From assembly GCF_947498095.1 (NCBI RefSeq), contig NZ_CANMJE010000007.1:1-64000 (forward strand): a stretch of DNA of 64,000 nt, in the 5' to 3' direction. Numbering within the stretch: position 1 is the first letter of the stretch; every line of letters starts with the position of its first letter. The notes beneath the pieces are model-generated. The model was not told where the DNA came from. It worked only from the letters and a program-made list of their open reading frames with translations, and searched no databases. This stretch comes from an uncultured Shimia sp. Its GTDB lineage: Bacteria; Pseudomonadota; Alphaproteobacteria; Rhodobacterales; Rhodobacteraceae. The translations under genes were made by a program, and so were the position numbers. Positions 33,280-59,411 of this stretch are shown piece by piece.

Positions 33280-33295
33280 TGGTGCGGCCGAGAAG
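33280..33295. other. left attachment site of the island (16-bp tRNA-Leu 3'-end repeat)
   Basis: TGGTGCGGCCGAGAAG is identical to 59325-59340, the 3' terminus of tRNA-Leu(GAG) with its CCA. Bases on both sides differ. A short copy of a tRNA end next to a P4-type integrase is the standard mark of an element inserted in a tRNA gene. The integrase begins 113 bases away. Confidence 0.85.
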
Positions 33296-33401
33296 CACCC
33301 GACTACAGAAACACCGAACAACGTCAGTAGGCATTTACCTTGTAAATAAGAACTTTTCGCTTATGACGATAGGCAACGGGCGTTACTATTTTAGATTTGG
33401 T

Positions 33402-33422
33402 GGTAGACATGGCGGTAGACAA
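33402..33422 (+). repeat. candidate arm-type integrase sites, left end
   Basis: GGTAGACAT (33402-33410) and GGTAGACAA (33414-33422) are two direct copies 12 bases apart, overlapping the integrase start. A similar pair lies at the right end (59249-59268). Confidence 0.4.
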
Positions 33423-34542
33423 ATTGAGTGCGACGCGGGTCAAGAAATTGGGCCCCGGCAAGCACAGTGACGGTAAGGGGCTATACTTTTGGGTGCGCGG
33501 CGCGACCAAGACTTGGTCTCTGCGGTACACGGATGCGGACGGTCGTCGGCGTGAGAAGTCGCTCGGCGTGTATCCCGAGGTGGATTTGGATAAGGCGCGC
33601 GCGCTTCGTGATGCCGACATTGGTGAGGCGAGGGGCAAGAAGTCGCACACGGTGCGTGTGTGGTTTGGCCGCTGGCTTAAGGCCAACAGGCACGACTTGA
33701 AGGACAGCGGGCGAGCTGGGCGTTGGCTGTCGCCTGTCAAGGTGCATGTGCTGCCCGCCTTGGGTCACCGCGACCTACGCGATCTGACTTTTGACGAGAT
33801 ACTCGCCGTCTTCGATCCGATCTGGCGCACAAAAACATCAGCCAGCAAGAAGGCGCTGGACCGTCTGGGTATGGTGCTACGCTATGCCGAGACCGAATTA
33901 CCCGTCATCGATGTGCGGCTGGTGCCGCGTGTGCGTGAGCGCCTCGGGAACCAGCGCCACACCGTGACCAACATCCCCGCCATGCCATGGGCCGAGGTTC
34001 CGACCCTGTACGCGACTTTGGGCGAGACACCTACAGAACTGGCGTTGCGACTGTTGATCCTGACGGCCTCGCGATCAGCCCCGGTGCGCTTCGGGCGAGA
34101 GGAGCAGTTCGAGGATGGCGTGTGGAGTATACCGGCCGAGAATATGAAGAATAGTAAGCCGTTCAGGATACCGCTGTCAGACGAGAGCCAGCGCGTGATC
34201 GACCTAGCGCGTCCTCTGGCGCGGGATGGGTTCCTGTTCTGCGCCTATCGCGGCAAGCCCATAAGCGACGCGGCGATGGCTAAGTACCTCGCGCGCGAGG
34301 GATACGAGGCGCGGCCCCACGGCTTCCGGTCTTCGTTTCGCGATTGGTGTGAGGAAACCGACGAACCATGGCACCTGTCCGAGACATCTCTCGCCCACAG
34401 CATCGGCAGCAAGACCGAGCGGTCCTATGCGCGCTCCGACTTGCTCGATCAACGCCGCCCGCTCATGCAGCGGTGGGCGGATCACGTCACCAACGCTGAG
34501 AGCGTGCTATTGTTGGAGGCTGGAGAGCCTGCACCAAAATGA
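33409..34542 (+). CDS. int: P4-type tyrosine integrase of the island
   Basis: A 377-residue tyrosine recombinase with an N-terminal DUF4102 arm-binding domain (LSATRVKKLGPGKHSDGKGLYFWV), a core-binding domain and a catalytic domain. The catalytic residues can be followed: Arg in LTASRS, H-x-x-R in HGFRSSFRDW, LAHSIG, and the Tyr in TERSYARSD. Such integrases use the 3' ends of tRNA genes. The ATG at 33409 lies within a GGTAGACATGG sequence that is repeated at the other island end, so integrase may control its own expression. It is the first gene inside the left repeat. Confidence 0.92.
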   Translation: MAVDKLSATRVKKLGPGKHSDGKGLYFWVRGATKTWSLRYTDADGRRREKSLGVYPEVDLDKARALRDADIGEARGKKSHTVRVWFGRWLKANRHDLKDSGRAGRWLSPVKVHVLPALGHRDLRDLTFDEILAVFDPIWRTKTSASKKALDRLGMVLRYAETELPVIDVRLVPRVRERLGNQRHTVTNIPAMPWAEVPTLYATLGETPTELALRLLILTASRSAPVRFGREEQFEDGVWSIPAENMKNSKPFRIPLSDESQRVIDLARPLARDGFLFCAYRGKPISDAAMAKYLAREGYEARPHGFRSSFRDWCEETDEPWHLSETSLAHSIGSKTERSYARSDLLDQRRPLMQRWADHVTNAESVLLLEAGEPAPK

Positions 34543-34631
34543 CTCACGATCCATACTGGACACGACCGAGGGATAGGCTGCCCACTGGGTCAAAGAGGGC
34601 GGACAGCGGACGTTCGTTGCGTTTTGCTCTA

Positions 34632-34656
34632 AGGTCTGCAACGCGGACGAAGCTGC
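34632..34656 (+). repeat. degenerate interspersed repeat copy
   Basis: AAGGTCTGCAACGCGGACGAAGC lies in the short space between the integrase and the AraC-type gene. It differs from the best copy at 11037 at a few positions, mainly TAT to AAC. Confidence 0.4.
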
Positions 34657-34697
34657 CGTCGGGCCTGCCGGGATGGGTGTCTGGTTCGGCGAACAAC

Positions 34698-35738
34698 TCA
34701 GTTTTTTTCGCCGTCCTCTACTTCTTGCAATTTTCTAAAAGCGGTTGGCGTCATGCCGTTTGCGCGGCGGAAGGCTCGGGCGAAATTTGCGGCATCCGTA
34801 AACCCGAGAACTGTCGCGATATCGGAAATCGATCTACTGGTCGTGACTAGAACCTCTCTTGCGTATTGCTGCCTCACGAAGCTTATCTCGTTGGTAATAT
34901 TGGTCCCGTTCTCAGCCAGTCGTCGTTTCAGCTTGTGCTGGCTCATCGATGCGAGAGCCGCACATTTTGAAGCGCTCAGGTCAATCTGTTCGATGTGTGC
35001 CCGGAGCATTTGCCTGAAGGATTGAACAAACCCGTCGGCAGCCGAGCTGGATATCTCCTCCGTGGCTAAACTGGACGACGCAGGATTCAGTTTTAGGGAC
35101 AACCAAGACGACGGAAAGTGGATGCAGAACCCCATTCTGTTCCCCCTCATAGGATGCATCAGGTCGAATTCCGATGGCAAAACCTTGGGGTCGCTTACAG
35201 TAACTGTTACTTTCGATGGGTCCAACCGATTGCGCAAAGCCCGCCGGAGAACGGCCAGGCCGAGCGCCACCATGAATGCATCGTTCTGAGCGGGCAGGAT
35301 TTGGGGTGCAAAAGAGCGCGTTTCTCCAAAAACTGCCGTTTGGCCGACTATATTGAGATGTTCTGTGACAGAACTGGCAATCTCGTTGGACCGCGCAATA
35401 AAGATCGACAGGAAGTCTCCCACCGTTGACGCGCGCGCCTCAGCGTCCTCAAGTATCGCCCAACCCTGAACATCGAGTTTGCTTCCAACGCGGGCCCCAA
35501 AAAAGGGATCTTCGGCAGACTTGGCGGCGTTCTCGACAAACTGGTGGATGACCATGACGTGAACTGAGAGGTCGGCCTCAAAGATTGCACCCTCAGTTAA
35601 CCCGACGCTCTCAAACACTGGTTCCGGGTCAATACCGCGTTCGTGGAGTTCCGTGGCGAAGGGGCGCAAAACACTCAGCTTTACGAGTGGTAAGGTGTGA
35701 TTCATCGATTCAGCATTCGCTTTTATGTTCAGTTTCAT
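34698..35738 (-). CDS. AraC-family transcriptional regulator
   Basis: A 346-residue regulator. The N-terminal 200 residues fit the AraC-binding-like-2 / Arabinose_bd domain (VLRPFATELHERGIDPEPVF...), and the C-terminal 90 residues carry two HTH motifs (AALASMSQHKLKRRLAENG and SISDIATVLGFTDAANFARAFRRANGMTPTAFR). It is divergent from the amidohydrolase gene with a 169-base shared promoter region, so it most likely controls that gene. The start could also be the ATG at 35705; neither has a strong ribosome site. Confidence 0.9.
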   Translation of the reverse strand: MKLNIKANAESMNHTLPLVKLSVLRPFATELHERGIDPEPVFESVGLTEGAIFEADLSVHVMVIHQFVENAAKSAEDPFFGARVGSKLDVQGWAILEDAEARASTVGDFLSIFIARSNEIASSVTEHLNIVGQTAVFGETRSFAPQILPAQNDAFMVALGLAVLRRALRNRLDPSKVTVTVSDPKVLPSEFDLMHPMRGNRMGFCIHFPSSWLSLKLNPASSSLATEEISSSAADGFVQSFRQMLRAHIEQIDLSASKCAALASMSQHKLKRRLAENGTNITNEISFVRQQYAREVLVTTSRSISDIATVLGFTDAANFARAFRRANGMTPTAFRKLQEVEDGEKN

Positions 35739-35907: not shown

Positions 35908-37314
35908 ATGAAGAGCATACTACAATCTGTAGCGGGTGTTTTGCTCGCGACAGCAACGGCTACGTCGGCGCTCGCTCAGGAAGAGGCTTCACCGGCACTG
36001 GTTCTATTCACGAACTGTGCGGTGTTTGATGGCCTCACGGAAACGTTGATTGAAGGGCAAAATGTTCTGATTGAGGGTAATCTGATTTCGGCTATCGGCG
36101 ATACGTCACTTGAGGCAGAAGGGGCAAACCAGATTGACTGCGATGGACGCACTTTGATGCCTGGGCTAATCGATGCGCACTCGCATCTTTACCTGAACAT
36201 CAATGGCGGTCTTGGTGCCCAAGAAGCTGCAACATGGGACGAAATCGGCGCGCGCGCGGCACATATGGCCAATGAATACCTGTATAGCGGGTTTACCAGC
36301 GTACGCGAAATGGGCGGAGGCGGATCGGGTTTAAAGAAGACAGTCGATGCCGGTCTGATCGAAGGTCCACGCATTTACCCAGCCGGTGCCTTTCTCTCAC
36401 AAACATCGGGCCACGGCGACTTTCGGTCCGCATCCATGCGCAACCCAAACTTGCCTCCCTATGCCAATGACAGCAACGCGCAACGTCTCGGCATCACGTA
36501 TGTGGCAGACGGTGTAGACGGTGTCATGGCGGCTGTCCGTCAGAACCTGTCTCAAGGGGCCAGCCAGATCAAGATGATGGCGGGAGGTGGCGTCGCGTCG
36601 GTTCTCGATCCGCTACACACACTGCAGTTCCAACCCGAAGAACTCGAAGCGGCGGTACGCGTAGCAGCCGATTGGAATACCTATGTCGGCGTTCACGTCT
36701 TCTCTGACGAGGGGATTTCGCGTGCTATTGAAGCGGGTGTAAAAAGTATTGAACATGGCTTTTTCGCCAGCCGGGAAACGCTTCAATTGATGAAGGACAA
36801 TGATATCTTCCTTGTTTCTCAGATGACCGGTATATCCCCATATCTCGAACAGAACCCCGGCCTTCAAACCAAGACGAACCAGGCGAAACTTGCTCTGGCA
36901 ACTGACTTGTCCAAGGACTTTGTCGAAAACGTTAAGGAAATCCGACCAAAAATGGCGTTCCAATCTGACATCATTTTTGCGCCCGCTGAAGGGTTCCGGT
37001 CACAAATGGATCACGAAAAGTGGTTCCACGCTGAACTCTTCGGCAATCATGCAATGCTTGTTGCGGCAACCTCTTCGGCAGGCGAACTTCTGGCATACTC
37101 GGGGAAAGCCAATCCTTACCTCGAAGGCCCTCTGGGTCTGATTGCGGAAGGCGCTTATGCCGACGTTCTTATTGTCGATGGAAACCCACTTGAAGACATC
37201 AGTGTCATCGGTGGCAACGAGAAATGGTACGACGCCGAACCGCGTCCTCGTGACATCCCGACGATGCGACTGATCATGAAAAATGGCGTGATCTACAAAA
37301 ATACTCTGAACTGA
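35908..37314 (+). CDS. exported amidohydrolase
   Basis: A 468-residue metal-dependent hydrolase with a Sec signal peptide (cleavage near SALAQE). Amidohydrolase motifs: LMPGLIDAHSHLY (metal His pair), the metal-bridging Lys in QIKMMAGGG, then VGVHVFSDEG and IEHGFF, and FQSDII for the final Asp. The first domain matches imidazolonepropionase-like / Xaa-Pro dipeptidase-like members, which hydrolyse amide bonds of peptides or cyclic imides. The export suggests it works on external substrates. The AraC-type gene beside it is the likely regulator. It ends at a terminator-like hairpin. Confidence 0.9.
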   Translation: MKSILQSVAGVLLATATATSALAQEEASPALVLFTNCAVFDGLTETLIEGQNVLIEGNLISAIGDTSLEAEGANQIDCDGRTLMPGLIDAHSHLYLNINGGLGAQEAATWDEIGARAAHMANEYLYSGFTSVREMGGGGSGLKKTVDAGLIEGPRIYPAGAFLSQTSGHGDFRSASMRNPNLPPYANDSNAQRLGITYVADGVDGVMAAVRQNLSQGASQIKMMAGGGVASVLDPLHTLQFQPEELEAAVRVAADWNTYVGVHVFSDEGISRAIEAGVKSIEHGFFASRETLQLMKDNDIFLVSQMTGISPYLEQNPGLQTKTNQAKLALATDLSKDFVENVKEIRPKMAFQSDIIFAPAEGFRSQMDHEKWFHAELFGNHAMLVAATSSAGELLAYSGKANPYLEGPLGLIAEGAYADVLIVDGNPLEDISVIGGNEKWYDAEPRPRDIPTMRLIMKNGVIYKNTLN

Positions 37315-37582: not shown

Positions 37583-38215
37583 TCAAATGTCGATCTTCTC
37601 AGCAATGCTTAGGGCATCTTCGACTTCGACGCCCAAGTACCTAACAGTGCTATCGATCTTTGTGTGGCCAAGAAGCAGTTGTACTGCTCGTAAGTTCCCA
37701 GTCTTACGGTAAATTTCAGCGGCCTTCGTCCTGTGCATCGAGTGCGTGCCGTAGCCACTTGGTTCTAAGCCAATTGCTGCGACCCAATCCCTGACAAGTC
37801 GGCCGTATTGGCGTGTTGAAATGTGGGGATGGTCGTGGAACCGACTTGGAAACATGAAGCTGCCTCTCAACATTTCTGGACTTTTGACCCAGTTGGCAAC
37901 GGAATCACGCGTGTTTTCAGTCAGTTCAAACTGAACTGGCCGCTTTGTTTTGCTTTGCACCACCGAAACACGTTCGCGCACTTGATCAGCGTTTACGAGG
38001 TCGCTCACCTTGAGACATACCAAATCGCGTCCACGCAACTTGCTATCGATCGCGACATTAAAGAGCGCCAGATCTCGCAAATTGTTTGCCAGTTCGAGAC
38101 GCGCTCGGATGGCCCAGACCTGTTTGGGTCGCAACGGGCGCTTTTGCCCGATGATGCGACCTTTGTTCCAAGCTCGTTGTTTGGGGGTGATTGCTGGAAG
38201 CTGTACTCTAGGCAT
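37583..38215 (-). CDS. short tyrosine recombinase
   Basis: A 210-residue protein that is essentially a catalytic domain of a tyrosine recombinase with a short N-terminal lead (PKQRAWNKGRIIGQKRPLRPKQVWAIR). Catalytic residues are seen: Arg in KLRGRDL, Lys in SKTKRPVQ, H-x-x-R in HSMHRTKA, His in LLGHTKIDSTVRYLGV, with the Tyr in RYLG. This 205-210-residue type occurs in proteobacterial plasmids and islands. The start at 38215 is the first family-like Met; the longer frame adds 36 residues of no known type. It probably came with part of the island cargo. Confidence 0.88.
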   Translation of the reverse strand: MPRVQLPAITPKQRAWNKGRIIGQKRPLRPKQVWAIRARLELANNLRDLALFNVAIDSKLRGRDLVCLKVSDLVNADQVRERVSVVQSKTKRPVQFELTENTRDSVANWVKSPEMLRGSFMFPSRFHDHPHISTRQYGRLVRDWVAAIGLEPSGYGTHSMHRTKAAEIYRKTGNLRAVQLLLGHTKIDSTVRYLGVEVEDALSIAEKIDI

Positions 38216-38808
38216 ATTTTGCCCTCCATACCGCCCTCCAAACCCAAGCGTCGGCATCGCGCTGACGATGGATAATAGCATAATTTCTATAACTGCTTTG
38301 GACTTGTCATGTAGGTGTACCATGCCGCGTATGCATCAGACAGCTCCGAGCCCGGAGTAGACATAGTCAACGCCGACGCTCGCAGGTGCTGCAACTCCCG
38401 CTTACCGAGACCATCAGCCACACTGCAGAAAGAAAAGCTGCCGTTCGTTACGCCCTCAGAAATTGTCCCGCCACCGGTGTTTGACTGGGCGACTATGCAA
38501 TCTTTGGCTGCAATTCCGGCAATCCGGCACTGAAAATGTCAGTCGCGCGGAACGCACCAAGGTTCTCGTACTTCTCTCTTTCAGCAGAGATCGCTGCCGA
38601 ATGCATTGCAGTGAAGGCGAGAAATGCAGGACCTTTGTCGGAGCTGAGGAATAGCCCGTGCTGTAACCTCAATTGAATTTCGCAAAACAGATGTTGGAAG
38701 GCTAACCAATCTCTAACTAGGTTCGTTGAGCGCCGAACGCCGCGAGCCGTACGTTTTAACACGCCATATCAGAGAGTTGGTTAGCGTCCTTTTGGGAGGC
38801 ACCACTCG
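38216..38808. other. gene-free space
   Basis: About 590 bases with only short overlapping frames on both strands and no ribosome sites worth noting. It separates the recombinase from the end of the TRAP transporter operon and may hold decayed sequence. No clear terminator for dctM was found. Confidence 0.4.
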
Positions 38809-40125
38809 CTAGTGCATAGAGTTTGGCAGGAACAGCACCAGTGTTGGTACAAGTACCAACACGGCCAAGCGGATGATGTCGACGACCCAGAATGGCGTGA
38901 CGCCTTTGAAGATCGTTGCTGTCGACACGTTCCCAACAACGCCTTTGAGGACAAAGACATTCAATCCGACCGGTGGTGTAATCAGGCTGATTTCGGTGAC
39001 GACGACAACAATGATGCCGAACCAGACCGGATCAAAGCCTAGGCTCGTGACCAGTGGAAAAAAGATCGGCACAGTCAGCAATAGCATCGAAAGGCTTTCG
39101 AAAACACATCCGAGGATGACATAGACGCCAAGGATCATCAGCATTACCGTCATTGGCCCCAGACCCGCAGAGGAAACCGTGGCGCGCAGCGCTTCCGGCA
39201 GGCCGGCAAGGTTCACAAAGTTTGAAAACACCCAGGCGCCGATCAGAACAGTAAACAGAGCGGCGGTCGTCTGGGCGGTTTCGATCAAGACCTGCATCGT
39301 TGCAGCAAAGCTGAGTCTGCGCCGCGAAAAAGCGATCAGAAAGGCTCCTGCCGCGCCCATACCTGCCGCCTCGGTCGGGGAAAATGTCAAATTCAGTGGC
39401 CAGAAGTCCAAAACTCCGTACAACCCGCCGATTACAATGAAGAACAACAGAAGTACCGCCCACACGCCTTTCAAAGCCTTGGCACGATCAACCCAGCTCG
39501 CGCGATCCCCGGCGGGGCCGGCCTCTGGGTTGCGCAGGATCGTGTAGCGCACTGCCGCAAGGTAAAGAACGACCCCGAGCAATCCCGGGATGATACCGGC
39601 GATGAACAATTTTCCGATGCTGGTTTCGGTCAGCAAACCATAGATAACAAGAATGACAGAGGGCGGTATAAGAATCCCCAACGTGCCCCCGGCGGCGATG
39701 GATGCCGTCGACAGGCTGTCAGCATAATTGTATTTGCGCATTTGAGGCATCGCGACTTTTGACATCGTGGCAGCAGTCGCCAGGGACGAGCCGCAGATGG
39801 CCGAAAATCCGGCACAAGCAACGATTGTCGCCATTGCCAGCCCACCTCGAAAGTGACCCATAAAGGCGTAAGATACCTGATACAATTCGCGCGACAGTCC
39901 GCCCTTATTCACGAAAAGCCCCATCAGGATGAACAGTGGGACAACCGACAGCCCGTAGTCCTGTGCGGTGTCTATGATCAACCGACCGACCATAGAAATC
40001 GAGGCACGAAACCCGCGCAGTTCAGCATAGCCGACAAACCCCACAAACCCCATTGCTATCGCAATCGGCATCCGCAGGAACACAAGGAAAAGGACCGCAG
40101 CCAGGCCAAGGATGGAAAACAGCAT
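38809..40125 (-). CDS. dctM: TRAP transporter large permease (DctM)
   Basis: A 438-residue membrane protein with 12 or so helices. It shows the DctM features PLFILMGLFVNKGGLSRELY, FSAICGSSLATAATM, the IPPSVILVIYG block, and TPPVGLNVFVLKG near the end. It is the sodium-coupled translocating subunit of a TRAP transporter for organic acids. The start at 40125 shares bases with the dctQ stop (TGATG), so the permease subunits are coupled. The longer frame upstream is a shadow of dctQ. It ends the catabolic operon on this strand. Confidence 0.95.
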   Translation of the reverse strand: MLFSILGLAAVLFLVFLRMPIAIAMGFVGFVGYAELRGFRASISMVGRLIIDTAQDYGLSVVPLFILMGLFVNKGGLSRELYQVSYAFMGHFRGGLAMATIVACAGFSAICGSSLATAATMSKVAMPQMRKYNYADSLSTASIAAGGTLGILIPPSVILVIYGLLTETSIGKLFIAGIIPGLLGVVLYLAAVRYTILRNPEAGPAGDRASWVDRAKALKGVWAVLLLFFIVIGGLYGVLDFWPLNLTFSPTEAAGMGAAGAFLIAFSRRRLSFAATMQVLIETAQTTAALFTVLIGAWVFSNFVNLAGLPEALRATVSSAGLGPMTVMLMILGVYVILGCVFESLSMLLLTVPIFFPLVTSLGFDPVWFGIIVVVVTEISLITPPVGLNVFVLKGVVGNVSTATIFKGVTPFWVVDIIRLAVLVLVPTLVLFLPNSMH

Positions 40126-40670
40126 CAGAAGTTTGCCTTTGTTGGGGAAATTACTCGCGCGACGGCACGGGCAATGAAGGTGATTGCAGTGACAAGGGTG
40201 AAAACGGAGATGAACCAACCGACATAGTGTTGTGGTAGGTTGAGGTATTCGCTGACATCGCCGTATTCGCGCGCACGTTCGGCAAGTTCCCAGACCCGCT
40301 TTGCGGGCCACAACAGAAAGATTCCGCACGCAAGATCAATTACAAAGTCGCGCAGGGCCGCAAGGCGACGGGAAAATAGCGGGTCCATAAGATCAACCAC
40401 GATGTTCGCGCCTTTCCAACTGACGATAGGCAGAGACGAAAACACGATGATGGCCATGAACAGTCGCGTTAATTCGGTTGCCGATTCAATCGGGTTGCCA
40501 AACAGGCTGCGCAAAACGACATCTGCAAATGTCATCGACATCAACAGGAACAAGATACCGGCCGCAAACCATGTCGGGGCAACGGCGATATAGCGCCAGG
40601 GACTTGTTTGTCGCAGCGACATGTCCCAGTTTTGCGCTGGATTTGAGGTTTGGTCATCTTGTTCAGTCAT
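40125..40670 (-). CDS. dctQ: TRAP transporter small permease (DctQ)
   Basis: A 181-residue membrane protein with four helices and the DctQ-type segments FADVVLRSLFGNPIESATELTRL and SLPIVSWKGANIVVDLM. It joins DctM in the membrane. The ATG at 40670 is favoured over an upstream start because the first 11 residues of the longer frame are not family-like. The stop overlaps the dctM start. dctP lies 82 bases upstream. Confidence 0.92.
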   Translation of the reverse strand: MTEQDDQTSNPAQNWDMSLRQTSPWRYIAVAPTWFAAGILFLLMSMTFADVVLRSLFGNPIESATELTRLFMAIIVFSSLPIVSWKGANIVVDLMDPLFSRRLAALRDFVIDLACGIFLLWPAKRVWELAERAREYGDVSEYLNLPQHYVGWFISVFTLVTAITFIARAVARVISPTKANF

Positions 40671-40751
40671 GATGGTGGGTCCACTGTATGAAACAAGGCC
40701 CAATGAAGGGCCTTGTTGTTGGTGTTTTGAAACGCTGAACGTGCGGTCAGG

Positions 40752-41897: not shown

Positions 41898-42689
41898 TTA
41901 AGGCCGACCCGAAATTTCAAGGGTTTCATATTCGGTGGCGATGTTCGCCGCAGCAAACTGCAAAGCGTCGGCATAACGCTTGATCGCCTGATCCATGTTC
42001 ATGGCCTTGGTGACCCAGATAATCGACAAGCAGCCGACCGCGCGATCATCAGTTAGGATAGGCACGGCCAGGCTGGATGTTTTGGGCCTGAATGTGTGTG
42101 GGCCACGGGTGGCGTATCCCTGTTCGGCATAGATCGTCAGGTTTTCCTCCAGCCATCTTTTTCTGAGGAACGGCATGTCTTCGGGAAGGTTTTCGGCGCG
42201 CAATAACTCGATAATCATCTCCAGCTCGCGCGAACCACAGACCGAAAGATAGGCCCGCCCCGCTGACGAGCGCAGAATGGGCAGGGAAAAGCCGACCATC
42301 CCTGGGTCCACCGACAACGGGCTGCGGCCATGGGTCGATTCCTGGATCACCATATGGGCGTCTTCATAGGTGGAAAGATCGGCTGGCCAGGCGTGGGTTT
42401 CGGTGAATTCCGCCATAACTGGTGCCGCCACCTGACAAAGGCGCGAGCGCACCGACACATTGTCTCCCAATGCCGCGGCCAAAGGCGACACACGCACCCG
42501 GGCATCGCTGGCGGAACAGAGGACATAGCCCTCTTCTTCCAGCGTGTGCAGCAAGCGATAAACCGTTGGGCGAGGCAAACCCAGCTCTGACGCGATTTCA
42601 CCCGGACGGGTTGCGCCGGCCCGGTTGAGATATCGCAGGATATTCAATCCACGCGCAAGCGCGCGGACAGTTTCAGAGTTTGCCGCCAT
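41898..42689 (-). CDS. IclR-family transcriptional regulator (MhpR-like)
   Basis: A 263-residue regulator. The N-terminal winged HTH is clear (LARGLNILRYLNRAGATRPGEIASELGLPRPTVYRLLHTLEEEGYV), followed by the IclR effector domain (STHGRSPLSVDPGMVGFSLPIL, SSAGRAYLS, LAVPILTDDRAVGCLSIIW). IclR proteins of the MhpR/PcaU type control aromatic catabolism, so it should govern the flanking hydroxylase, dioxygenase and transporter genes. It lies between the enzyme and transporter genes on the same strand. The two 17-bp palindromes in the cluster are its probable targets. Confidence 0.93.
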   Translation of the reverse strand: MAANSETVRALARGLNILRYLNRAGATRPGEIASELGLPRPTVYRLLHTLEEEGYVLCSASDARVRVSPLAAALGDNVSVRSRLCQVAAPVMAEFTETHAWPADLSTYEDAHMVIQESTHGRSPLSVDPGMVGFSLPILRSSAGRAYLSVCGSRELEMIIELLRAENLPEDMPFLRKRWLEENLTIYAEQGYATRGPHTFRPKTSSLAVPILTDDRAVGCLSIIWVTKAMNMDQAIKRYADALQFAAANIATEYETLEISGRP

Positions 42690-45228: not shown

Positions 45229-45242
45229 CAGGTTCCCCTCTC

Positions 45243-51097: not shown

Positions 51098-52213
51098 TTA
51101 CACCAACGTTAAAGATGAGCGGCTGTGCTTCGTGGAAATCGACTTCAACAGTGGCGCGTCTCCAAGCAACCTTATGGCGATGTTGGGCGCGGCCATTGCC
51201 CGCATCAGTGCACCGTAGTTCATGTAAAATTTCACCTCGTTTCCAACATGCAAGTAAGATTTTGGGTTCGTTATTATGGTATGGTCGCTTGTCGCGCCGA
51301 CAAACCGGATACGCACAGGCATTGTCAATCCGCTGAGATCCGTATCCTGAACCCCAAGAGCAAGGATGGAACGCGCGTTCGGAGAGTTTTGTGCAACGAG
51401 ATGTCTAGCACCAAAACAAGGACTTCTGTCTGCCACAGAAGCTGGGTTTGTTTTGGTTTCGATAACCTCAGCGATAAGAACAAACGCATCTGTATAAAGG
51501 CCGGAAATTTGCTTGCCTGATACTGGGTTTACGCCCAAAAGAATGGCCTCACCCAACCGCAGTTCATTGATGCGTCCTATGTGACTTTGGCCCATCGCCC
51601 AAGGCAAGTTAGCAGAGTTCCCACCCGAAACAATTTCCAGAGGCGCTTCGCGTCTACGGTCAATTGACATCGCAAGCTTAGACAATTTGGCCATTTGTGT
51701 TGCATCGGGTACAGGACCGCCAAGACAAGCAAAATTGGCTCCGATCCCCTTGAGTGAAACACCCGGCATCCCGTCAACTTCTTTCGCAATCACGCCAAGA
51801 TGATCTGGAGAAATCCCTTCGCGCATATCGCCCATTTCGACCATCAGAATGACCCCGTGGGTTTTTTGTGTTCGGACGGCTGCTGCAGAAAGGCCAGCTA
51901 TGACGGACAATTCGGTATTGCAGCTGACTTCACAAATCGAGACGACCTGTTCCACTTGGCTTAGCATCGGCGTGCGGATCAACGTGATCGGTGCCTTGAT
52001 GCCCGATTTACGCAGCTTACCAACATTGCTGATCCGCGCATCTGCGAGGCCCAAAACCCCCCCATCAATCATCGCCTGAGCGATGGCAGCATTCCCGCAA
52101 ACGGCTTTTGTTACACCCAAAACAGCAATACCGAGAGGCTCTAGACGCTTTACAAGGCTTTGCGTGTTGTGGCGTATCTTGGCCAGATCAACTTCGATGC
52201 GGGGTGCATTCAT
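51098..52213 (-). CDS. PLP-dependent amino-acid racemase (alanine/ornithine racemase family)
   Basis: A 371-residue fold-type III PLP enzyme. The N-terminal IEVDLAKIRHN and VLGVTKAVCGN (Lys36 would hold PLP) match the alanine racemase N-terminal barrel, with GNSANL and RLGEAILLG later, as in the ornithine racemase-like subgroup. The canonical C-terminal catalytic Tyr domain is different from Alr. Its start overlaps the DUF1611 stop (ATGA), so the two enzymes are coupled. A D-amino acid is the likely shared metabolite, but which one cannot be read. Confidence 0.85.
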   Translation of the reverse strand: MNAPRIEVDLAKIRHNTQSLVKRLEPLGIAVLGVTKAVCGNAAIAQAMIDGGVLGLADARISNVGKLRKSGIKAPITLIRTPMLSQVEQVVSICEVSCNTELSVIAGLSAAAVRTQKTHGVILMVEMGDMREGISPDHLGVIAKEVDGMPGVSLKGIGANFACLGGPVPDATQMAKLSKLAMSIDRRREAPLEIVSGGNSANLPWAMGQSHIGRINELRLGEAILLGVNPVSGKQISGLYTDAFVLIAEVIETKTNPASVADRSPCFGARHLVAQNSPNARSILALGVQDTDLSGLTMPVRIRFVGATSDHTIITNPKSYLHVGNEVKFYMNYGALMRAMAAPNIAIRLLGDAPLLKSISTKHSRSSLTLV

Positions 52214-53409
52214 TCTGCAGCCACCTCTGGCTTTTGATGCAGTTCTGGAAATGCAGATAGAACGAACTGGACCAAATGCTCAGTTGGACACACAAGAGCA
52301 TCGGTGACAGGCAATTCAAGTCTTTGACTGTATGCCGTGATAGCTGTTGTGATCGCAGCCTCTGACATGCCCTCGTGATTGATCGTTAGGCCGATCACCT
52401 TGGTATCGGCAAAGGATTCTATTAGGGCAATCTCAGTTGCAGGGTCAGGCATGGGCATATCGGGAAAGTCGCACCGATGTACGCGCTCTGGAGCGTGTTG
52501 AAGGATGACCGCGTCGGGTTGGCTGCCGCGCAAAATGAATGCCGACGTGCAAAAAGCCGGATGGCTAAGGGCCCCTTGGCCTTCAATCAAGATAACATCC
52601 GGTTGTTCACCGTCAGATGCTGCGACGATGGCGCCCTCCAACTCACCACAACAAAACTGAGGCGGAACCGCGTCCATTGCCACACCATATATTGCGCCCT
52701 GCATCAGCCCTGTCTGACCGGTGCCAACAAGAACGGTTTTGATGTTCAGAGCATTCAAAGCATGTGCAAGAACGGTTGCAGTTGTCCGTTTACCTATTGC
52801 GCAATCGGTGCCAAGAACGGCAATTCGAACCGCATGGACATCCGCAACACTACCGTCAAAAAGGCGCATGTCTTTGCTGAGTTTTGGTTTGCGAATGTCG
52901 CGGATGGTGACGCCCTTAGACTTGGCAAACATTGCAATTTCAGTGTCATCACTCAGATATTCATGTAACCCGCTGACAATGTTCATGCCAAGGGCAATGG
53001 CATCCAAAACGACATCCCGGTCCGTCTGGGACAACTTGCCAGTGGACGGCGCCATTCCGTAGATCATCGTATTGGGAATCGCTGGCTCATGAATGACCGC
53101 AGCTTCGAGGGTCGGAAATATGGGCACATTGTTGATGATACCGTCCAAAATCTGGCCGCTATCTGACCCGCCATATTCGCTATCGACCACCGAAACGATG
53201 CGGTAGGCCTGCGAATGCCGGACAAGTCCATTTGCCGTTTTGCCGTCAATCTTTGAAAAATTCCCTTCGCAATACACAATCGCAGTGGGTGCTTTAGAGA
53301 TGTGTAGCTTAGGTGTGATAGCCGCTGAAGCGACCAGATTGCAGAAAGGTGTTTGTTTACCCTTGGCATTCCCCAAAGTGGTGGGCGCTGCTTCAATTTC
53401 ATGTTCCAT
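52210..53409 (-). CDS. DUF1611 protein (DgcN-like)
   Basis: A 399-residue protein with the DUF1611 plan: an N-terminal Rossmann-like part (TAIVYCEGNFSKIDGKTANGLVRHS, IVSVVDSEYGG), then a P-loop domain with GTDCAIGKRTT at 200-210 and IEGQGALSHPA. Known relatives include DgcN, a D-glutamate N-acetyltransferase working with DgcA. Here the partner is a PLP racemase instead of a DgcA epimerase. AAAGGA precedes the start. The coupled pair suggests D-amino-acid use or synthesis. Confidence 0.85.
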   Translation of the reverse strand: MEHEIEAAPTTLGNAKGKQTPFCNLVASAAITPKLHISKAPTAIVYCEGNFSKIDGKTANGLVRHSQAYRIVSVVDSEYGGSDSGQILDGIINNVPIFPTLEAAVIHEPAIPNTMIYGMAPSTGKLSQTDRDVVLDAIALGMNIVSGLHEYLSDDTEIAMFAKSKGVTIRDIRKPKLSKDMRLFDGSVADVHAVRIAVLGTDCAIGKRTTATVLAHALNALNIKTVLVGTGQTGLMQGAIYGVAMDAVPPQFCCGELEGAIVAASDGEQPDVILIEGQGALSHPAFCTSAFILRGSQPDAVILQHAPERVHRCDFPDMPMPDPATEIALIESFADTKVIGLTINHEGMSEAAITTAITAYSQRLELPVTDALVCPTEHLVQFVLSAFPELHQKPEVAAE

Positions 53410-53508: not shown

Positions 53509-54255
53509 CTAGTTTTTCAAGACGCACAGACCTTTGGATTTCTGGAAATTCCTGTGACATTCCCATCCACTACCCGATCGGTCGAGGTGAGCATTTTCGG
53601 GCAATTCAATGGCTTCACATCCGCCATTTGAAACTGAAAAGCCACGCTCACACTTCCATCCAGGTCCATAACTTGCGGCGCTAAGGTATGCGTTTTGTGG
53701 AATAACCACTGCCTCGCATTTTCCGTCATTGCGAAGGAAACCACGTTCGCAAACCCATCGTTTTCCCGAGCCGGATGCGTTCAGGTATGCGTTGTCTGGC
53801 ACAATGATTTTTTGGCACTCATCATCAATTCTCTGATACTCTCGCAGACAATGCCATCGTTCACCCGATGGAGCCAAATAACCACCTTCAGGCACCACAA
53901 CCTTCACGCAGGAAGACTCTCGAGTTCTCCGGAAGCCATGAATGCAACTCCATCCTTCTCCATAAGATCGATAGGTTAAGTATGCGTTGTCTGGCACAAC
54001 AATGGCCACGCATGTGTTTTCGTGGGGTCGAAAAGCAAAGTCACATTCCCACCCACTTCCGTAGGACTTGGCGTGCGCGTTGTCTGGCAAGACGCCAGTA
54101 GATGATTGCGCAAGTACTGGGCTGATCACAAGAAACGACAGGCAAACTGTTAATGCCCAAACCGAAATCCAGGACGCTGTGCCAAAGTGCTTTGGTATTG
54201 TAAGGCGCGCTGAAAGTGCAGCACGCCTCAGATGAAGAATGGCTCTAGGACGCAT
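53509..54255 (-). CDS. exported protein with six Cys-containing tandem repeats
   Basis: A 248-residue protein. After a long basic lead and a signal sequence (WISVWALTVCLSFLVISPVLAQ) the whole mature part is six imperfect repeats of about 32 residues with the pattern P-x-NAYL-x-GxxWxC-x-x-GF-x7-C-x-x-V. Each repeat has two Cys, likely one disulphide. Similar repeats occur in alphaproteobacterial exported proteins, but I know no function. The ATG at 54255 overlaps the preceding gene by 11 bases, so it is coupled; the third repeat departs most from the pattern (PEGGYL). Confidence 0.75.
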   Translation of the reverse strand: MRPRAILHLRRAALSARLTIPKHFGTASWISVWALTVCLSFLVISPVLAQSSTGVLPDNAHAKSYGSGWECDFAFRPHENTCVAIVVPDNAYLTYRSYGEGWSCIHGFRRTRESSCVKVVVPEGGYLAPSGERWHCLREYQRIDDECQKIIVPDNAYLNASGSGKRWVCERGFLRNDGKCEAVVIPQNAYLSAASYGPGWKCERGFSVSNGGCEAIELPENAHLDRSGSGWECHRNFQKSKGLCVLKN

Positions 54256-54598
54256 CCAAATCCAGCCCCTCAATACAGGCAACCGCAAGATCAGAGTTTG
54301 GCTTCTCAGCTCCGGGAGGTGTTGCCCAACCAGCTTCCATGACCGCCTTGCGACGGGTATATCCAGTGGCCTCTCGAATTGTTGCCAGTTTCCCGATCCG
54401 ATCAGGATCGGTAGCAGCCATATCCAGACACATAGGCACCATAGCTTTGGTAACTTCTTCGTTGGCAAAGGTTTTTGCCATTTTTGTGGCGGTACCGCCG
54501 GTTGTCCACCCGCCCCAAGAAAAGCCGAGGAAAGTCGCGGCAATAGCGCCGACAACTACGCCGTATACGGCGGGTTTAGTCCATTCAGGTAAGTTCAT
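54245..54598 (-). CDS. small membrane-anchored protein
   Basis: A 117-residue protein with an N-terminal helix (AVYGVVVGAIAATFLGFSWGGWTTGG) and a soluble part containing two Cys (PMCLDMAATDP and AVACIEG). It resembles small conserved proteins of Rhizobiales and Rhodobacterales with the pattern G-x-A-x-x-MAK-x-FA and VAP-C, which have no known function. Its start overlaps the upstream stop by ATGA and its stop overlaps the next start, so it is the middle of a tightly coupled three-gene unit. Confidence 0.7.
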   Translation of the reverse strand: MNLPEWTKPAVYGVVVGAIAATFLGFSWGGWTTGGTATKMAKTFANEEVTKAMVPMCLDMAATDPDRIGKLATIREATGYTRRKAVMEAGWATPPGAEKPNSDLAVACIEGLDLDAS

Positions 54599-55376: not shown

Positions 55377-55703
55377 TTATTGTTTAGGAATAAGTGCAGC
55401 GAACTGGCGCACTTGCCTTGAAGTCCTACCCCCAACATCGCTCCTTGGCTTAGCCACCACAATTTGCTGATTGAGCGACACAGCCCCTGCCCGCCCGAAA
55501 GCGCGTTCGTGGGCGATCGCCAGCAATTTGATTTGCACGACGGGCTTGAGCCATCCGTCTGCCCCCCAGGCCGCATCATCATTGAGCAGGTCGCTCATTC
55601 TTCGCACGGCGATTTCACCGTTGGCCTGAATGGCATCTCGAACCTCTTTGGGCATGGCTGGCCGTCCATGTGGATTGCCCGACTGGCCTTTCTTGAACCG
55701 CAT
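55377..55703 (-). CDS. DUF5681-like protein
   Basis: A 108-residue protein opening with FKKGQSGNPHGRPAMPKEV, the signature of DUF5681, then a helical region (RRMSDLLNDD, WLKPVVQIKLLAIAHERAFGRAG). It lacks the long acidic tail of the copy at 19901-20356 and is not followed by a terminase gene. It may be a DNA-recognition or packaging accessory of the island or its helper phage. The ATG has GGGGTG upstream. It lies past the terminator of the primase operon and so has its own promoter. Confidence 0.75.
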   Translation of the reverse strand: MRFKKGQSGNPHGRPAMPKEVRDAIQANGEIAVRRMSDLLNDDAAWGADGWLKPVVQIKLLAIAHERAFGRAGAVSLNQQIVVAKPRSDVGGRTSRQVRQFAALIPKQ

Positions 55704-56066
55704 ATTTCACCCCCTGTTTCGCCCCTGTTAGCAGCGCGTCAGCCCTCTACATGCGCGAGGGCATGGTCTGTGCGTCTAATCCACGCCCCCGACCTCAATT
55801 CAGTCGACCTTCATATCATTGCGGACGAACACTCAGCATGACCTCAACTTAGCTGACTTCACTCTAGTCAAAAAGAATTTTATTAAATATGTCATATACT
55901 TAACGTATCGCTTCTCAGCGTGGCGGAGCATTTCTGGGGGCACTGGGGCGTGGGGCGATAACTTTTCATCCAGCCAGCTAAATGCACATACGTGCGTAGC
56001 GTAGTGAGTAGATATTTTTTTGTATTAGGTATTGAGAGCTATCGCCCCACGACCCTAGCCCTAGTG
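55704..56066. other. gene-free space
   Basis: About 360 bases with no supported gene, between the DUF5681-like start and the terminator of the helicase operon. It contains an AT-rich stretch (55860-55915) that may hold the DUF5681-like promoter. Confidence 0.35.
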
Positions 56067-56099
56067 AAAAACCCCGCAAAATAGGAACATTCTGCGGGG
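56067..56099 (-). terminator. intrinsic terminator of the primase-helicase operon
   Basis: On the minus strand CCCCGCA (56099-56093) pairs with TGCGGGG (56078-56072) over a 14-base loop, followed directly by TTTTT (56071-56067). It lies 37 bases past the helicase stop codon. Confidence 0.85.
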
Positions 56100-56135
56100 C
56101 GGGTGATCCCGGGGCAATACCGCATTTTGGGGCGA

Positions 56136-57542
56136 TCAAACCGCTTTGACGCCAAACGGGCGCGTTTTCTGGCGCAGCTTCAGACGTTCGACGTTGTCTA
56201 GGAGATGTTTTACCGCCTCTTCGACTTCCGTGAGGCTGGGGCGATACCCTATCTGGGGGCGATCAAGAAGGATGCGTGGCTGATGTCTATCGCCCCTTAC
56301 TCGCATCCGCCCACGCCCATCGCAGTGCGGCGCTTGGCGGGTGTGGTTGTTGACCCAAGACCGCACGATGTAGGTCAGTTTTGTGCCGTAGCTCATCGCC
56401 AATTTGTAGTTCGGCCCGCCGTGCTGTTTCAGAACCTCGCAGACAGCCGCGACGGTGACGATGCCGCCCGCGTTTAAGTCTTCGACGGTCTCTTCGATGG
56501 CGTCGTCCAGAGGGTCTTTGGCGTCTTGGGTCAGCGCGTCCTTTGCGGCGTTCTCTAGTGGCATGGACGCATTGAACTGCGACACCTCGCGGTCTTTCAG
56601 GAAATGGAAGATCGCGTCGAGGCGTTGGCCCTCTCGGGCGTCTGCCAACCAGCCCATGATCTCGGGGTGTGCGACACGCAAACCGACCGTGCTGCCCGAC
56701 AGCACCGAGAAGCGCCGATCCCCCGGCTCTAATGGCAGCGCACCCCCAAGGTTGGTGGCGAGCATGAAGCTGGTGAAGATGTCCGCGCTGTACTTATCCA
56801 CGCCCTTGGGTTCGATGGTCTCGACCCGCTTGTCTGGATCGACGAGTTCTTTCAGCTTGTTGTAGATCGTCTGCCGCGCCACGTAGTCGCTGTTCTCGTC
56901 TATCTCGCCGACAGAGATCAGCAGCGCATTGGCGAGGTGCGTGTTGAACTGTTTGGCGTTGGACCCGAAGAGGCTGGCCGCATCCATCGGCATGTGATGT
57001 CCGAGGACTTTGCCGAAGATATCGAACAGCGACCCCCGCCCCGTACCAAAGATCGGCGTATAGGACACTAGCGCGACCATACGTGCCTCTGGGTGTTGCA
57101 GCTTGTACGCCATCCAATCCAGTGCGTACTCCCAATCCTCGGGCGCGACATGGCGCACCAGAGTGACGAAATGCTCCGCGTCGGCGGGATCGCCCGCGCC
57201 TTCGGGCTGGTACGGTTTGTAGGTGTTGATGAACCCGTAGTCAGCGCCCGTTTCGGAACTGAAGCCAACGGGCAGGCGCGGGTCTAGGATCGGCGGTTTC
57301 ATTGTTGCGCGGGGGTTGCCCCGCAGCCATGTGGTCACGGGTGACGTGCGGACCTGCTCCTGCCCCCGGTATCGTACGTGGTCGAAGCGGGTCAGTTGGC
57401 CCTTCATACCCGCAACAGTGCAGAGCGGAAGATGATCTCCACCCTCAAGGTCGTACACCCCGCCCTTGGGGGCATACCAGACGAGGCGCTCTTGCAGCCC
57501 CAGTTCTTCGACCATATTTTGTTGTTCCAGTTCGTCGCTCAT
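56136..57542 (-). CDS. DUF5906 / D5-like helicase of the island
   Basis: A 468-residue protein of the phage/satellite primase-helicase class with a DUF5906 core: TPIFGTGRGSLFDIFGKVLG is a Walker A-like loop in which GTGRG replaces the common G-x-G-K-S, followed by SLFGSNAKQFNTHLANALLISVGEID with the Walker B-like end. A C-terminal region with a poly-basic HTH-like part follows. It probably drives replication of the excised island with the primase upstream. The start at 57542 overlaps that gene by ATGA. Confidence 0.82.
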   Translation of the reverse strand: MSDELEQQNMVEELGLQERLVWYAPKGGVYDLEGGDHLPLCTVAGMKGQLTRFDHVRYRGQEQVRTSPVTTWLRGNPRATMKPPILDPRLPVGFSSETGADYGFINTYKPYQPEGAGDPADAEHFVTLVRHVAPEDWEYALDWMAYKLQHPEARMVALVSYTPIFGTGRGSLFDIFGKVLGHHMPMDAASLFGSNAKQFNTHLANALLISVGEIDENSDYVARQTIYNKLKELVDPDKRVETIEPKGVDKYSADIFTSFMLATNLGGALPLEPGDRRFSVLSGSTVGLRVAHPEIMGWLADAREGQRLDAIFHFLKDREVSQFNASMPLENAAKDALTQDAKDPLDDAIEETVEDLNAGGIVTVAAVCEVLKQHGGPNYKLAMSYGTKLTYIVRSWVNNHTRQAPHCDGRGRMRVRGDRHQPRILLDRPQIGYRPSLTEVEEAVKHLLDNVERLKLRQKTRPFGVKAV

Positions 57543-58528
57543 TTTTTCTTCCCCCGGCGCTCGGCCAGCAGCCGCGCCTGTCTGATTTCGTGGCCTTCCC
57601 AACTCAGGTTGGGCGGGTTCTCATTTGGTGGGATGCCCGCCTTGACGAGCATGTCTAGGGTGCGGGTCCGCACGTCAGGGCCGCCCTGCGTCTCGACCCA
57701 ATCCAGCAGGTCGTTGGTGTCGTGCCCGTGGGTGTGCCAGCAGTTGAAGTGCCGCTTGATGTCGGTCTCGTCTGCGGGCTTGTAGCGGGTGCCATCTCGC
57801 CGCGACTGATCGGTATGCTCGTGATGCCACGGACACTCGATCTGATGCCAACCGCCGGACATCTCTTTCAGCAACATGCCGCGATCCTGTAGCCAATCGA
57901 AGACGTAATCCTCGACCGCGACACCGGGTGCGGCAGGCGTGGGCTTGTACCCCCTCACAGCGCGGTCATAGATCGCCTCTGCGACCCCCATTTGGTCTAG
58001 GAAGGTCTCCGCCTCGTAGGTCAGCGCCGGATCGAAGAACAGCAGCTCGGCGGCGTGTTTCTTGCCCAATGGTTTGGACCCCGGCAGGCGGTAGAGCCGA
58101 ACCAGATCGAGGCAGTTCGGATCGCAGTACTCGGCGGACCCGAGCGACGCCATGATGGTGGCGAACAGGTCCAAGTCTTGGCACGGCTTATCCAGCTTGT
58201 AGATGTAGGTGCTGTTGCCGGGGCTGGTCTCGATGATGGCGGACGCAGGTAGCAGTGGCCGCCGCGCCTTGGTGCCGACATCATCCAGCGCGATCACGCC
58301 CAGAGAGCGGACGTTGACGGGGCTTCGGAACGGGTTGCCGTTCTCGTTCAGTTTATCGCCCAGCATGGCCACACAGGCGTGTGTGTAGGGCGCTGTGGCG
58401 CGTGGGTGCCACTTGGTGACGGGGTAGCTCTGGCTCTTCGCTGTCCCGACCGTGCGGGCCACGATAACGTGACCCACAGGATCAGGATACAGACCAGCGA
58501 GGAACTCGCGGGTGCTGATGTCCTTCAT
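57539..58528 (-). CDS. primase-like protein of the island
   Basis: A 329-residue protein resembling the RepB-like primase or primase-polymerase group: LGVIALDDVGTKA is the probable catalytic D-D strand, and SPGNSTYIYKLD follows. The C-terminal half has a zinc-finger-like cluster, CPWHHEHTD then FNCWHTHGHD, characteristic of primases. It would start DNA synthesis for the DUF5906 helicase. The start at 58528 overlaps the 55-residue gene by ATGA. Confidence 0.78.
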   Translation of the reverse strand: MKDISTREFLAGLYPDPVGHVIVARTVGTAKSQSYPVTKWHPRATAPYTHACVAMLGDKLNENGNPFRSPVNVRSLGVIALDDVGTKARRPLLPASAIIETSPGNSTYIYKLDKPCQDLDLFATIMASLGSAEYCDPNCLDLVRLYRLPGSKPLGKKHAAELLFFDPALTYEAETFLDQMGVAEAIYDRAVRGYKPTPAAPGVAVEDYVFDWLQDRGMLLKEMSGGWHQIECPWHHEHTDQSRRDGTRYKPADETDIKRHFNCWHTHGHDTNDLLDWVETQGGPDVRTRTLDMLVKAGIPPNENPPNLSWEGHEIRQARLLAERRGKKK

Positions 58529-58692
58529 GACGCCGCCTCGCGCATATTGCTGATCTCGCCAACGTGCTCAGAGAAGCGGATCGCGTCGACGTCGCGCGAC
58601 CTCCAGCGTTTGGCCGGCCTCATCAGATCGGGGTTTTCGGCACCCTTGCAGTAGTCAGGGCCTTGAAGAGTAATAGATACAGAGTAGGACAT
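58525..58692 (-). CDS. 55-residue protein of the island replication operon
   Basis: A 55-residue basic protein with ATG at 58692 and AAGGGA upstream. It starts with a short beta-like segment (MSYSVSITLQGPDYC) and then a RPAKRWRSRDVDAIRFSEHVGE stretch. The ATGA overlap with the primase gene and the good ribosome site argue that it is real. It could be a small regulator of replication; there is no family evidence. Confidence 0.6.
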   Translation of the reverse strand: MSYSVSITLQGPDYCKGAENPDLMRPAKRWRSRDVDAIRFSEHVGEISNMREAAS

Positions 58693-58802
58693 AGGATTTT
58701 CCCTTATGTCTGCCTCCAAGTGGATTTGTGGATATTGCAGTCCCTCGGTCAGAAATGGCTGGGGGTTTCAACATCTCGATCCAGTGGAGAAATGTTGAAG
58801 AA

Positions 58803-58973
58803 TTAGGCGGCTACAGGTTTGAGGAGCGTGTCCTCGGGGTAGCGAACGACATTTGGCCCGAAGCGTACAAACTCGGGGCCTTTGCCGGCTTTGCGCCAGC
58901 GGTAAAGAGTGTGGATGTGGACGCCGAGCCGTGCTGCGGCCTCTTCGGTCGTCAATAGTTTAGGTAAAGCCAT
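58803..58973 (-). CDS. AlpA/MerR-type excisionase, 56 residues
   Basis: A 56-residue protein from ATG at 58973 to TAA at 58803, with a GAGGAG ribosome site. It is a minimal HTH_17/AlpA domain: LLTTEEAAARLGVHIHTLYRWRKAGKGPEFVRFGPNVVRY would be a winged-HTH with the W-R recognition helix. Such proteins act as excisionases or regulators of P4-type integrases. It is the first gene of the operon xis-like / 55-residue / primase / helicase. In the circular form of the island it would lie next to the integrase gene. Confidence 0.82.
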   Translation of the reverse strand: MALPKLLTTEEAAARLGVHIHTLYRWRKAGKGPEFVRFGPNVVRYPEDTLLKPVAA

Positions 58974-59324
58974 CGGTCGAGGCTCCTCTGTTCAGAGGAT
59001 GATGCGTCTGACTGGCTCCTTCACCAGCCTAGCTTCTTCACCCGCCGCAGGGCTTCTGCCGTTCAACTTAACCTTAACCGTTGATGTCGCAGCCGCGACC
59101 GTGCGTGGGTTCCTGGTGCGGTGCGACCCGCCGTGACCCGTCAATCTTTTGTCCATATGCCCGCCGACGGCGGGTTTGCACAACATCTTCTAACATCAAT
59201 AAACATTATTGTTGTGAGATCAACCCTCCACCGGCAAAAGAGGCGTGCGGTAGATATTTGGTAGACATGACACCCCTTTGAGCAGTCTAAGTCTTTGTTT
59301 TATATGAGGGCTTCCCTTCAAGTC
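58974..59324. other. gene-free right-end region of the island
   Basis: About 350 bases between the excisionase and tRNA-Leu, with no gene. It should contain the excisionase promoter and the arm side of the attachment site. Two GGTAGAYAT copies are listed separately. Confidence 0.5.
59249..59268 (+). repeat. candidate arm-type integrase sites, right end
   Basis: GGTAGATAT (59249-59257) and GGTAGACAT (59260-59268) are two direct copies 11 bases apart, about 57-76 bases from the tRNA repeat. They match the pair at 33402-33422 at the other end. Confidence 0.4.
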
Positions 59325-59411
59325 TGGTGCGGCCGAGAAGACTCGAACTTCCACGGGTGTTACCCCACAGCGACCTCAACGCTGCGCGTCTACCAATTCC
59401 GCCACGGCCGC
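59325..59411 (-). tRNA. tRNA-Leu (anticodon GAG), integration target
   Basis: On the minus strand the sequence begins GCGGCCGTGGCGGAATTGG and ends CGGCCGC-A-CCA, with CCA encoded at 59325-59327. The anticodon arm is CAGCG-TTGAGGT-CGCTG, anticodon GAG, decoding CUC/CUU. A class II variable arm is present (TGGGGTAACACCC). The final 16 bases are repeated at 33280-33295. The gene is intact, so integration restored its 3' end. Confidence 0.95.

Follow-up and report, generated by a model that had tools for sequence, protein, structure and literature searches.

A probable satellite-type integrative element with catabolic cargo at the tRNA-Leu(GAG) gene of an uncultured Shimia sp.

In P4, the integrase gene (int) and the replicase gene lie on either side of the attachment site (att) (PMC8628076). 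In the Pseudomonas island I55, int is found at one end and alpA at the other (PMC12595487), and in phage-inducible chromosomal islands (PICIs) the order is primase, rep, replication origin (ori) and sometimes the small terminase gene terS (PMC6092414), as described in the parts of these reports drawn on here. We analysed a 64-kb stretch of contig NZ_CANMJE010000007.1 from an uncultured Shimia sp. (hereafter the window; all coordinates are positions in the full window), in which 26 kb of bacterial chromosome, from position 33280 to the tRNA-Leu(GAG) gene, form an island. Our analysis indicates, with a probability of roughly 0.7, that this island is an integrative element of satellite type (P4/PICI-like), which entered the 3' end of tRNA-Leu(GAG) by site-specific recombination. 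Its insertion is seen in the att cores, the arm-like sites paired on each side, a tRNA gene that is still intact, relatives in which the site is empty and a second occupied case with both ends conserved.

With Gram-negative PICIs the island shares an att site and integrase of its own, AlpA and accessory genes, as well as a primase gene, a rep gene, ori-like repeats and a terS-like gene that follow one another in the same direction (PMC6092414). When the PICI core was compared by profiles, int, alpA and DUF5906 were matched, the primase was matched weakly, candidates were present for ori and terS, and no structural genes were found among the open reading frames (ORFs) scanned. Unlike in those PICIs, int (33409) is not at the regulator and replication end but far from alpA (58803-58973), with ~20 kb of cargo in between (PMC6092414), and the two would be adjacent only in the circle. 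The likeness is known here from genes, whereas a helper, induction and interference belong to the PICIs as reported (PMC6092414). P4-like satellites also have a P4-type integrase, AlpA and a primase-helicase, with int and the replication end parted by att in the circle (PMC8628076). The island encodes AlpA, and int and the replication genes would flank att in its circular form; unlike in P4, primase and helicase are on separate ORFs (PMC8628076). No psu, delta, sid or epsilon family was found among the scanned window ORFs, a scan in which short divergent homologues could be missed.

The Pseudomonas islands I23, I44 and I55 resemble the present island in that integrase and alpA occupy opposite ends with variable cargo between them, and that the 3' end of an RNA gene recurs as a short direct repeat; their target, however, is tmRNA, their cargo includes phage defence, and DUF5681 is not mentioned in the part of that report considered here (PMC12595487). 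I55 is described there as transduced by a jumbo phage (PMC12595487). The phage-inducible chromosomal minimalist islands (PICMIs) of Vibrionaceae have a core of int, AlpA (PF12728 allowed) and a DUF5906 primase (PF19263 allowed), and, as in the island studied here, the end away from the target gene has a direct repeat upstream of int, but the prototype has six genes, a fis target and int near alpA (PMC10803314). The island matches the PICMI profiles, but it targets tRNA-Leu, and 24 kb separate int from alpA. Tycheposons share the tRNA at the border, a tyrosine recombinase and metabolic cargo; their hosts differ, and this likeness is one of description (via PMC10872708). The element would work like a PICI, P4 or I55 and is not a clear member of any one of them. 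A preliminary description of this DNA had noted that joining the two ends would place int beside xis as in satellites; this layout holds, but it is not new, being known from P4 and I55. No description of the element was found by title or start of abstract in a search that covered mainly the open literature.

Insertion at tRNA-Leu(GAG) and the empty site

The tRNA-Leu(GAG) gene was identified by a single ARAGORN call on the minus strand (59325-59411). It is intact, and its 87 bp are identical to those in three congeners (G012, G008 and G013). Its last 16 bases, TGGTGCGGCCGAGAAG, form the att core at 59325-59340 and are present as an exact copy at 33280-33295 on the plus strand, the displaced tRNA-Leu 3' end that marks the outer end of the island. 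No third copy was found in the 64-kb window at up to two mismatches, and shuffled controls gave a mean of 0.06 matches over 100 shuffles, none of which reached two. Adjoining the displaced copy is an intact tyrosine integrase of the arm-binding P4 type (33409-34542, plus strand; 377 aa; PHROG 1), which starts at the ATG at 33409 or, in the ORF list, at the TTG at 33397. Its arm-binding, central and catalytic parts were all detected by Pfam (Arm-DNA-bind_3, Phage_int_M and Phage_integrase), the Phage_integrase domain barely over the cut-off (27.3 vs 27.1 bits). The preliminary description had placed a 16-bp copy of the tRNA 3' end beside the integrase and an intact tRNA at the far end, next to AlpA-like, 55-residue, primase and DUF5906 genes; the first proved to be an exact pair unique in the window, and the second was confirmed by ARAGORN and profile matches.

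To find the site without the island, we searched for the PAP2 gene of the left flank, which was present in 3 of 59 other genomes, all three of them congeners. The distance from tRNA-Leu to PAP2 is ~150 bp in G022 and ~1.7 kb in G012, and in G020 one contig starts within tRNA-Leu with PAP2 next. When joined at the core, the window flanks align with G022 and G020 through the PAP2 upstream DNA, the core and the tRNA, and the order lplA - tRNA-Leu - PAP2 - transporter is kept in G022 and G012. By this sequence comparison, the three congeners carry the empty site, in agreement with the proposal that a relative should have PAP2 directly next to tRNA-Leu. A direct repeat of the tRNA 3' end, an adjoining integrase and an empty site in relatives, all found here, are the marks of a site-specific integrative element. 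The earlier claim of a 26-kb integrative island in tRNA-Leu(GAG) is thus upheld by the att cores, the empty sites and the second occupied case described below.

The tRNA-Leu gene itself was present throughout the genus in the 25 genomes searched, and the DNA downstream of it was covered in 22 of the 24 other congeners (all but G019 and G021), with short stretches in G014 and G002 (~1.3 kb) and G016 (6.6 kb) and an end at the tRNA in G020. None of these 22 stretches had alpA, primase, DUF5906 or DUF5681 near tRNA-Leu at E <= 1e-3, a threshold that a more divergent 56-residue alpA could escape. Weak integrase matches were obtained in two of them, at 35% over 68 residues (L079) and at 31% (L082), the latter 17.6 kb off, past the transporter gene. 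The DNA downstream of tRNA-Leu varies between congener species: among the 22 stretches (L064, L065, L078-L097), the transporter is seen in 9 and starts ~0.2-15 kb away.

Arm-type sites and a second occupied case

A genome from another genus, G189, the only one of that genus among the genomes searched, carries a relative of the island. Integrase relatives at E <= 1e-20 were found in 151 of 295 family genomes (own genome counted), of which the best was that of G189 with 79% identity over residues 8-365; other full-length matches reached 45-48%. The identity cut was set at 56% because partial matches exist at 49% (G086), 50% (G222) and 56% (G101, 178 residues), and above it the integrase is restricted to the window genome and G189 (2 of 295). 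The integrases at 45-48% (L008-L035) were not used as family members; the motif GGTAGAC was missing upstream of all 27 that were checked (L008-L035 except L027). Searches with the integrase pair returned one distant Burkholderiales match (28%) among genome contigs and none among viral contigs.

The context of the G189 integrase is that of the window's left flank, with tRNA-Ser and the transporter, and it adjoins the core TGGTGCGGTCGAGAAG; the T in this core is the base that the tRNA of G189 itself has, whereas both window copies have C there. The tRNA-Leu gene of G189, with lplA upstream, lies 1.33 Mb from the integrase and is inverted relative to it. Next to this tRNA come alpA, with 45% identity over 51 residues to its positional counterpart in the window, then a 757-residue protein with an AAA_25 domain and a DUF5681 gene (67%). 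The two parts of the G189 island are at G189:C1:1143486 and 2470922 (L075, L067), the left one with a truncated resolvase copy. The simplest reading of this arrangement is one island that was split by a chromosomal inversion with its breakpoint between resolvase and DUF5681.

In the window and in G189 alike, the core has a pair of arm-like sites on each side, and all follow one consensus. The left pair, GGTAGACA-N4-GGTAGACA (33402-33421, plus strand), overlaps the int start codon and is the same in G189, at ~107 bp from the core in both; int autoregulation by Int would suit this position. The right sites, GGTAGATA and GGTAGACA (59249-59267, plus strand), were recognised by alignment with G189. 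The left sites are spaced by 12 bp in both genomes; for the right sites the spacing is 11 bp (window) and 12 bp (G189). An attP with two arms is expected to look like paired sites flanking a core. The exact left pair was present in 3 of 394 family genomes (the window genome, G189 and G220), against 1 of 394 for the reversed control; the G220 pair (G220:C8:91846-91865, L107) was set aside as possibly due to chance, and the next ORF there matches the window's second recombinase weakly (E=0.017). Further into the right end, a conserved att-proximal block, GTCCATATGCCC-N-GTTTGCACAAC (59149-59186, plus strand), was present in 2 of 394 family genomes, those of the window and G189, and its reversed control in none of the 394.

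Both ends belong to one element because integrase, att core, arm sites and right-end block are all shared with G189. We also weighed two unrelated neighbours, namely a left integrase island and a right AlpA-primase element that had entered at this tRNA too and whose own integrase is gone. The att core of only 16 bp and the second tyrosine recombinase and serine recombinase inside the island would suit such a pair, and rare P4-like cases with a foreign integrase alongside have been reported (PMC8628076). This explanation is very improbable, given that int, the right-end block, DUF5681 and the resolvase, four features from different places of the island that were searched separately, recur together in the one other genome, and that in both genomes the arm-like sites to the left and right of the core share a consensus.

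A decayed island, no longer mobile and kept for its metabolic genes, would account for the absence of any sign of recent spread in the genus, with element genes near tRNA-Leu in none of the 22 stretches from congeners, of which four are short or stop at the tRNA, and for relatives that are rare, the G189 copy being in two pieces. All core genes of the window island are nevertheless full-length ORFs, its two att cores match exactly and each end has arm-like sites, and we regard decay as unlikely.

A further element in G189 (element 3; C1:2277900-2289300, L115) has a different integrase (Phage_integrase plus arm domain) beside an apparent partial tRNA-Asn; the latter is a reading of the bases, ARAGORN finding no intact tRNA in L115. 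The integrase is followed there by an ORF with 51% identity to the first half of the 757-residue protein and no Pfam match, then DUF5906, DUF5681 (72%) and a serine recombinase (87%). Replication-type genes, DUF5681 and serine recombinase, as read from these gene orders, recur together, while the integrase and the type of replicase differ between elements. Integrase exchange has been reported for P4-like elements (PMC8628076). No structural family was found in the G189 relatives among the 20 ORFs scanned, which are a part of their ORFs. This and the same reduced core in these relatives argue against an ordinary prophage reduced to a remnant by loss of structural genes, which we consider the most improbable explanation, even if integrase, AlpA, primase-helicase and TerS-like genes are found in phages too.

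Replication end and the DUF5681 gene

Next to tRNA-Leu in the window is an AlpA/Xis-type gene (58803-58973, minus strand; 56 aa; HTH_17) that matches PHROG 66, 'excisionase and transcriptional regulator'. It is followed on the same strand by a 55-residue ORF (58525-58692), for which profile scans including PHROG gave no family match, a primase-like protein (57539-58528) and a DUF5906 helicase-type protein (56136-57542, from ATG). These last three look like one operon because ATGA overlaps occur at both joints. The primase-like protein matches a PHROG DNA primase (5e-6), with a RepB_primase match of 0.02 under the cut-off and no match in the PDB. The DUF5906 protein was recognised by profiles and PHROG, and its PDB matches are 6k9e/6k9c, 'Primase' (E=5.6e-9), which we take to be the helicase part of the phage NrS-1 primase-polymerase. 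In G260, a primase-like/DUF5906 ORF pair has 34-36% and 27% identity to the respective window proteins; no close relatives of DUF5906 were found in genome contigs, nor of the primase in viral contigs. Six ATCGCCCC/GGGGCGAT repeats (55952-56296), which run into the end of DUF5906, are a candidate replication origin; the ATCGCCCC cluster is the strongest 8-mer cluster of the 64 kb, and two more copies occur elsewhere in the window.

Downstream of these lies a gene of DUF5681, a Pfam family of unknown function (55377-55703, minus strand), which the preliminary description had left out together with the two inner recombinases. It is a candidate small terminase subunit (TerS) with 67-73% identity to two G189 copies, and of 295 family genomes only two, the window's own and G189, were found to have it. 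A non-coding block upstream of it (55747-55779, minus strand), a candidate pac/cos site or operator, is identical to each G189 copy in 30 of 33 columns and is thus better conserved than the gene itself (74% and 69%); this counts as about one comparison because the two G189 copies are nearly identical there.

To place the family in phages, viral contigs were searched with a three-protein alignment, and the DUF5681 gene was directly before a large-terminase gene in all three contigs scanned (L119, L120 and L122); a fourth (L121), outside the large-terminase scan, has its two ORFs in common with L120. When viral contigs were scanned again with a single DUF5681 protein, the same contigs were returned. 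A motif scan of viral contigs (FKKGQSGNP start) gave at least 120 stretches, and the matches listed yielded 80 IMG/VR loci (L131-L210). A locus was testable if an ORF of at least 150 residues on the same strand started -150 to +700 bases from the stop of the DUF5681-type gene, the longest being taken. Among the matches listed, 65 of the 80 loci were testable and 15 lacked such an ORF, the stretch ending within 700 bases in 9 of the 15. For at least 49 of the 65, the downstream ORF matched PHROG 2, a family of large terminases, further ones matching other terminase families, and in a self-match control 56 of the 65 downstream ORFs matched those of other loci vs 21 of 488 other ORFs, all among the matches listed. 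DUF5681 genes, by their order, sit where a small terminase would be expected, and from this position we infer that the window gene is probably a small-terminase-like packaging gene. Against annotated phages DUF5681 gave matches only at E 0.1-0.9, and one phage DUF5681 protein (tblastn) matched one unannotated record; on plasmids no near match was found. The earlier statement that the cargo is metabolic rather than virion genes holds in that the scanned ORFs contain no structural genes, but it needs amending for the gene that is probably small-terminase-like.

From its gene content we infer that the island could be excised, replicated and packaged. The integrase and the AlpA-type protein would excise the element as a circle, in which int and alpA diverge from a central attP. 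This circle would be copied by the DUF5906 helicase together with the primase-like protein, perhaps from the repeats at 55952-56296, and the serine recombinase may resolve multimers. The DUF5681 protein would act as the element's own small terminase, and the large terminase of a helper phage would package the element. The catabolic genes would be passengers in two slots, from int to the serine recombinase and from there to DUF5681.

Several points weigh against such a satellite. The circular form is a prediction from assembled sequence, and the G189 island is in two pieces, so that its ends are not contiguous there. The match of the window protein to DUF5681 is mostly to the N-terminal motif (residues 2-33), and its predicted structure, of moderate confidence (mean pLDDT, the predicted local distance difference test, of 62), gave no fold match at E <= 0.001. 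No exact match of the DUF5681 upstream block was found in viral contigs, and therefore no helper phage was identified. The predicted structure of the primase-like protein was unusable (pLDDT 34), and the relatives examined had no ATCGCCCC-type repeat cluster. A structural proteome is not the usual place for a small terminase. A DUF5681 protein is listed in the structural proteome of a Salmonella phage, in the part of that report considered here (PMC8954984).

The least expected part of the island is what is probably a small terminase on an element otherwise full of catabolic genes. We tentatively suggest, as a possibility that could well prove wrong, a satellite family of this bacterial family, with a DUF5681 small terminase and a packaging site of its own, which would use helper phages to move 20-kb catabolic blocks between genera, here for the use of aromatic compounds, fatty acids and D-amino acids; in that case DUF5681 would represent a small-terminase class that is general and still without a name. 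If true, whole catabolic clusters could travel in phage particles instead of plasmids. It predicts that many phages, and the window element, have DUF5681 as their small terminase; if this is right, an orphan DUF5681 gene beside replication genes would be a marker for satellites in genomes.

Inner recombinases and cargo

The serine recombinase (resolvase/invertase; 49013-49585, minus strand) has 87-88% identity to its counterpart in G189 element 3 and 86% over a 79-residue piece in the split G189 island (element 1). Among 208 genomes, it was found at 88% or more in the window genome and G189, and at 58-62% in four others. The non-coding stretch upstream of it (49586-49694, minus strand), a candidate res site, is conserved in G189 element 3, and blastn aligned 48963-49694 with that element at 76%. 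PADLOC, run on 10 ORFs, gave one weak match, to this recombinase (E=0.005). Inside the cargo is a second, short tyrosine recombinase of 246 aa (37583-38323, minus strand; Pfam and PHROG), for which no att of its own was recognised.

Serine recombinases and metabolic cargo occur on integrative mobilizable elements, and the origin of transfer (oriT) of such an element, which would conjugate with a helper plasmid, would escape the tools used. This explanation of the island is nonetheless quite unlikely: no relaxase, coupling, type IV secretion system or virion structural families were found among the window ORFs scanned, and AlpA, primase/DUF5906 and the TerS-type gene point to phages. The cargo DNA (34545-55260) had no near match on plasmids.

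The first cargo slot (34.7-48.6 kb) runs from a regulator of the AraC type (34698-35738, minus strand; Pfam) to a gene resembling MCRA/oleate hydratase (46892-48595, minus strand). It includes an amidohydrolase (35908-37314, plus strand; Pfam and NCBIfam), a TRAP transporter, DctM-DctQ-DctP (38809-41765, minus strand; profiles), and an aromatic-catabolism cluster (41898-46229, minus strand; profiles) of an IclR regulator, an FAA hydrolase, an MhpA-like FAD hydroxylase and an extradiol dioxygenase-like protein, which together form a meta-cleavage-type set. Several cargo names are NCBIfam matches under the curated cut-off, among them the oleate hydratase-like gene and, in the second slot, the racemase-fold (ornithine racemase-like) and DUF1611/DgcN-like genes (51098-53409, minus strand). 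This second slot (49.9-54.9 kb) also encodes a glycine-zipper protein and two ORFs without families. The ORF at 53509-54555, which gave no Pfam or PHROG match, contains four 20-nt repeats (53686-54092), and its product is a Cys-containing repeat protein.

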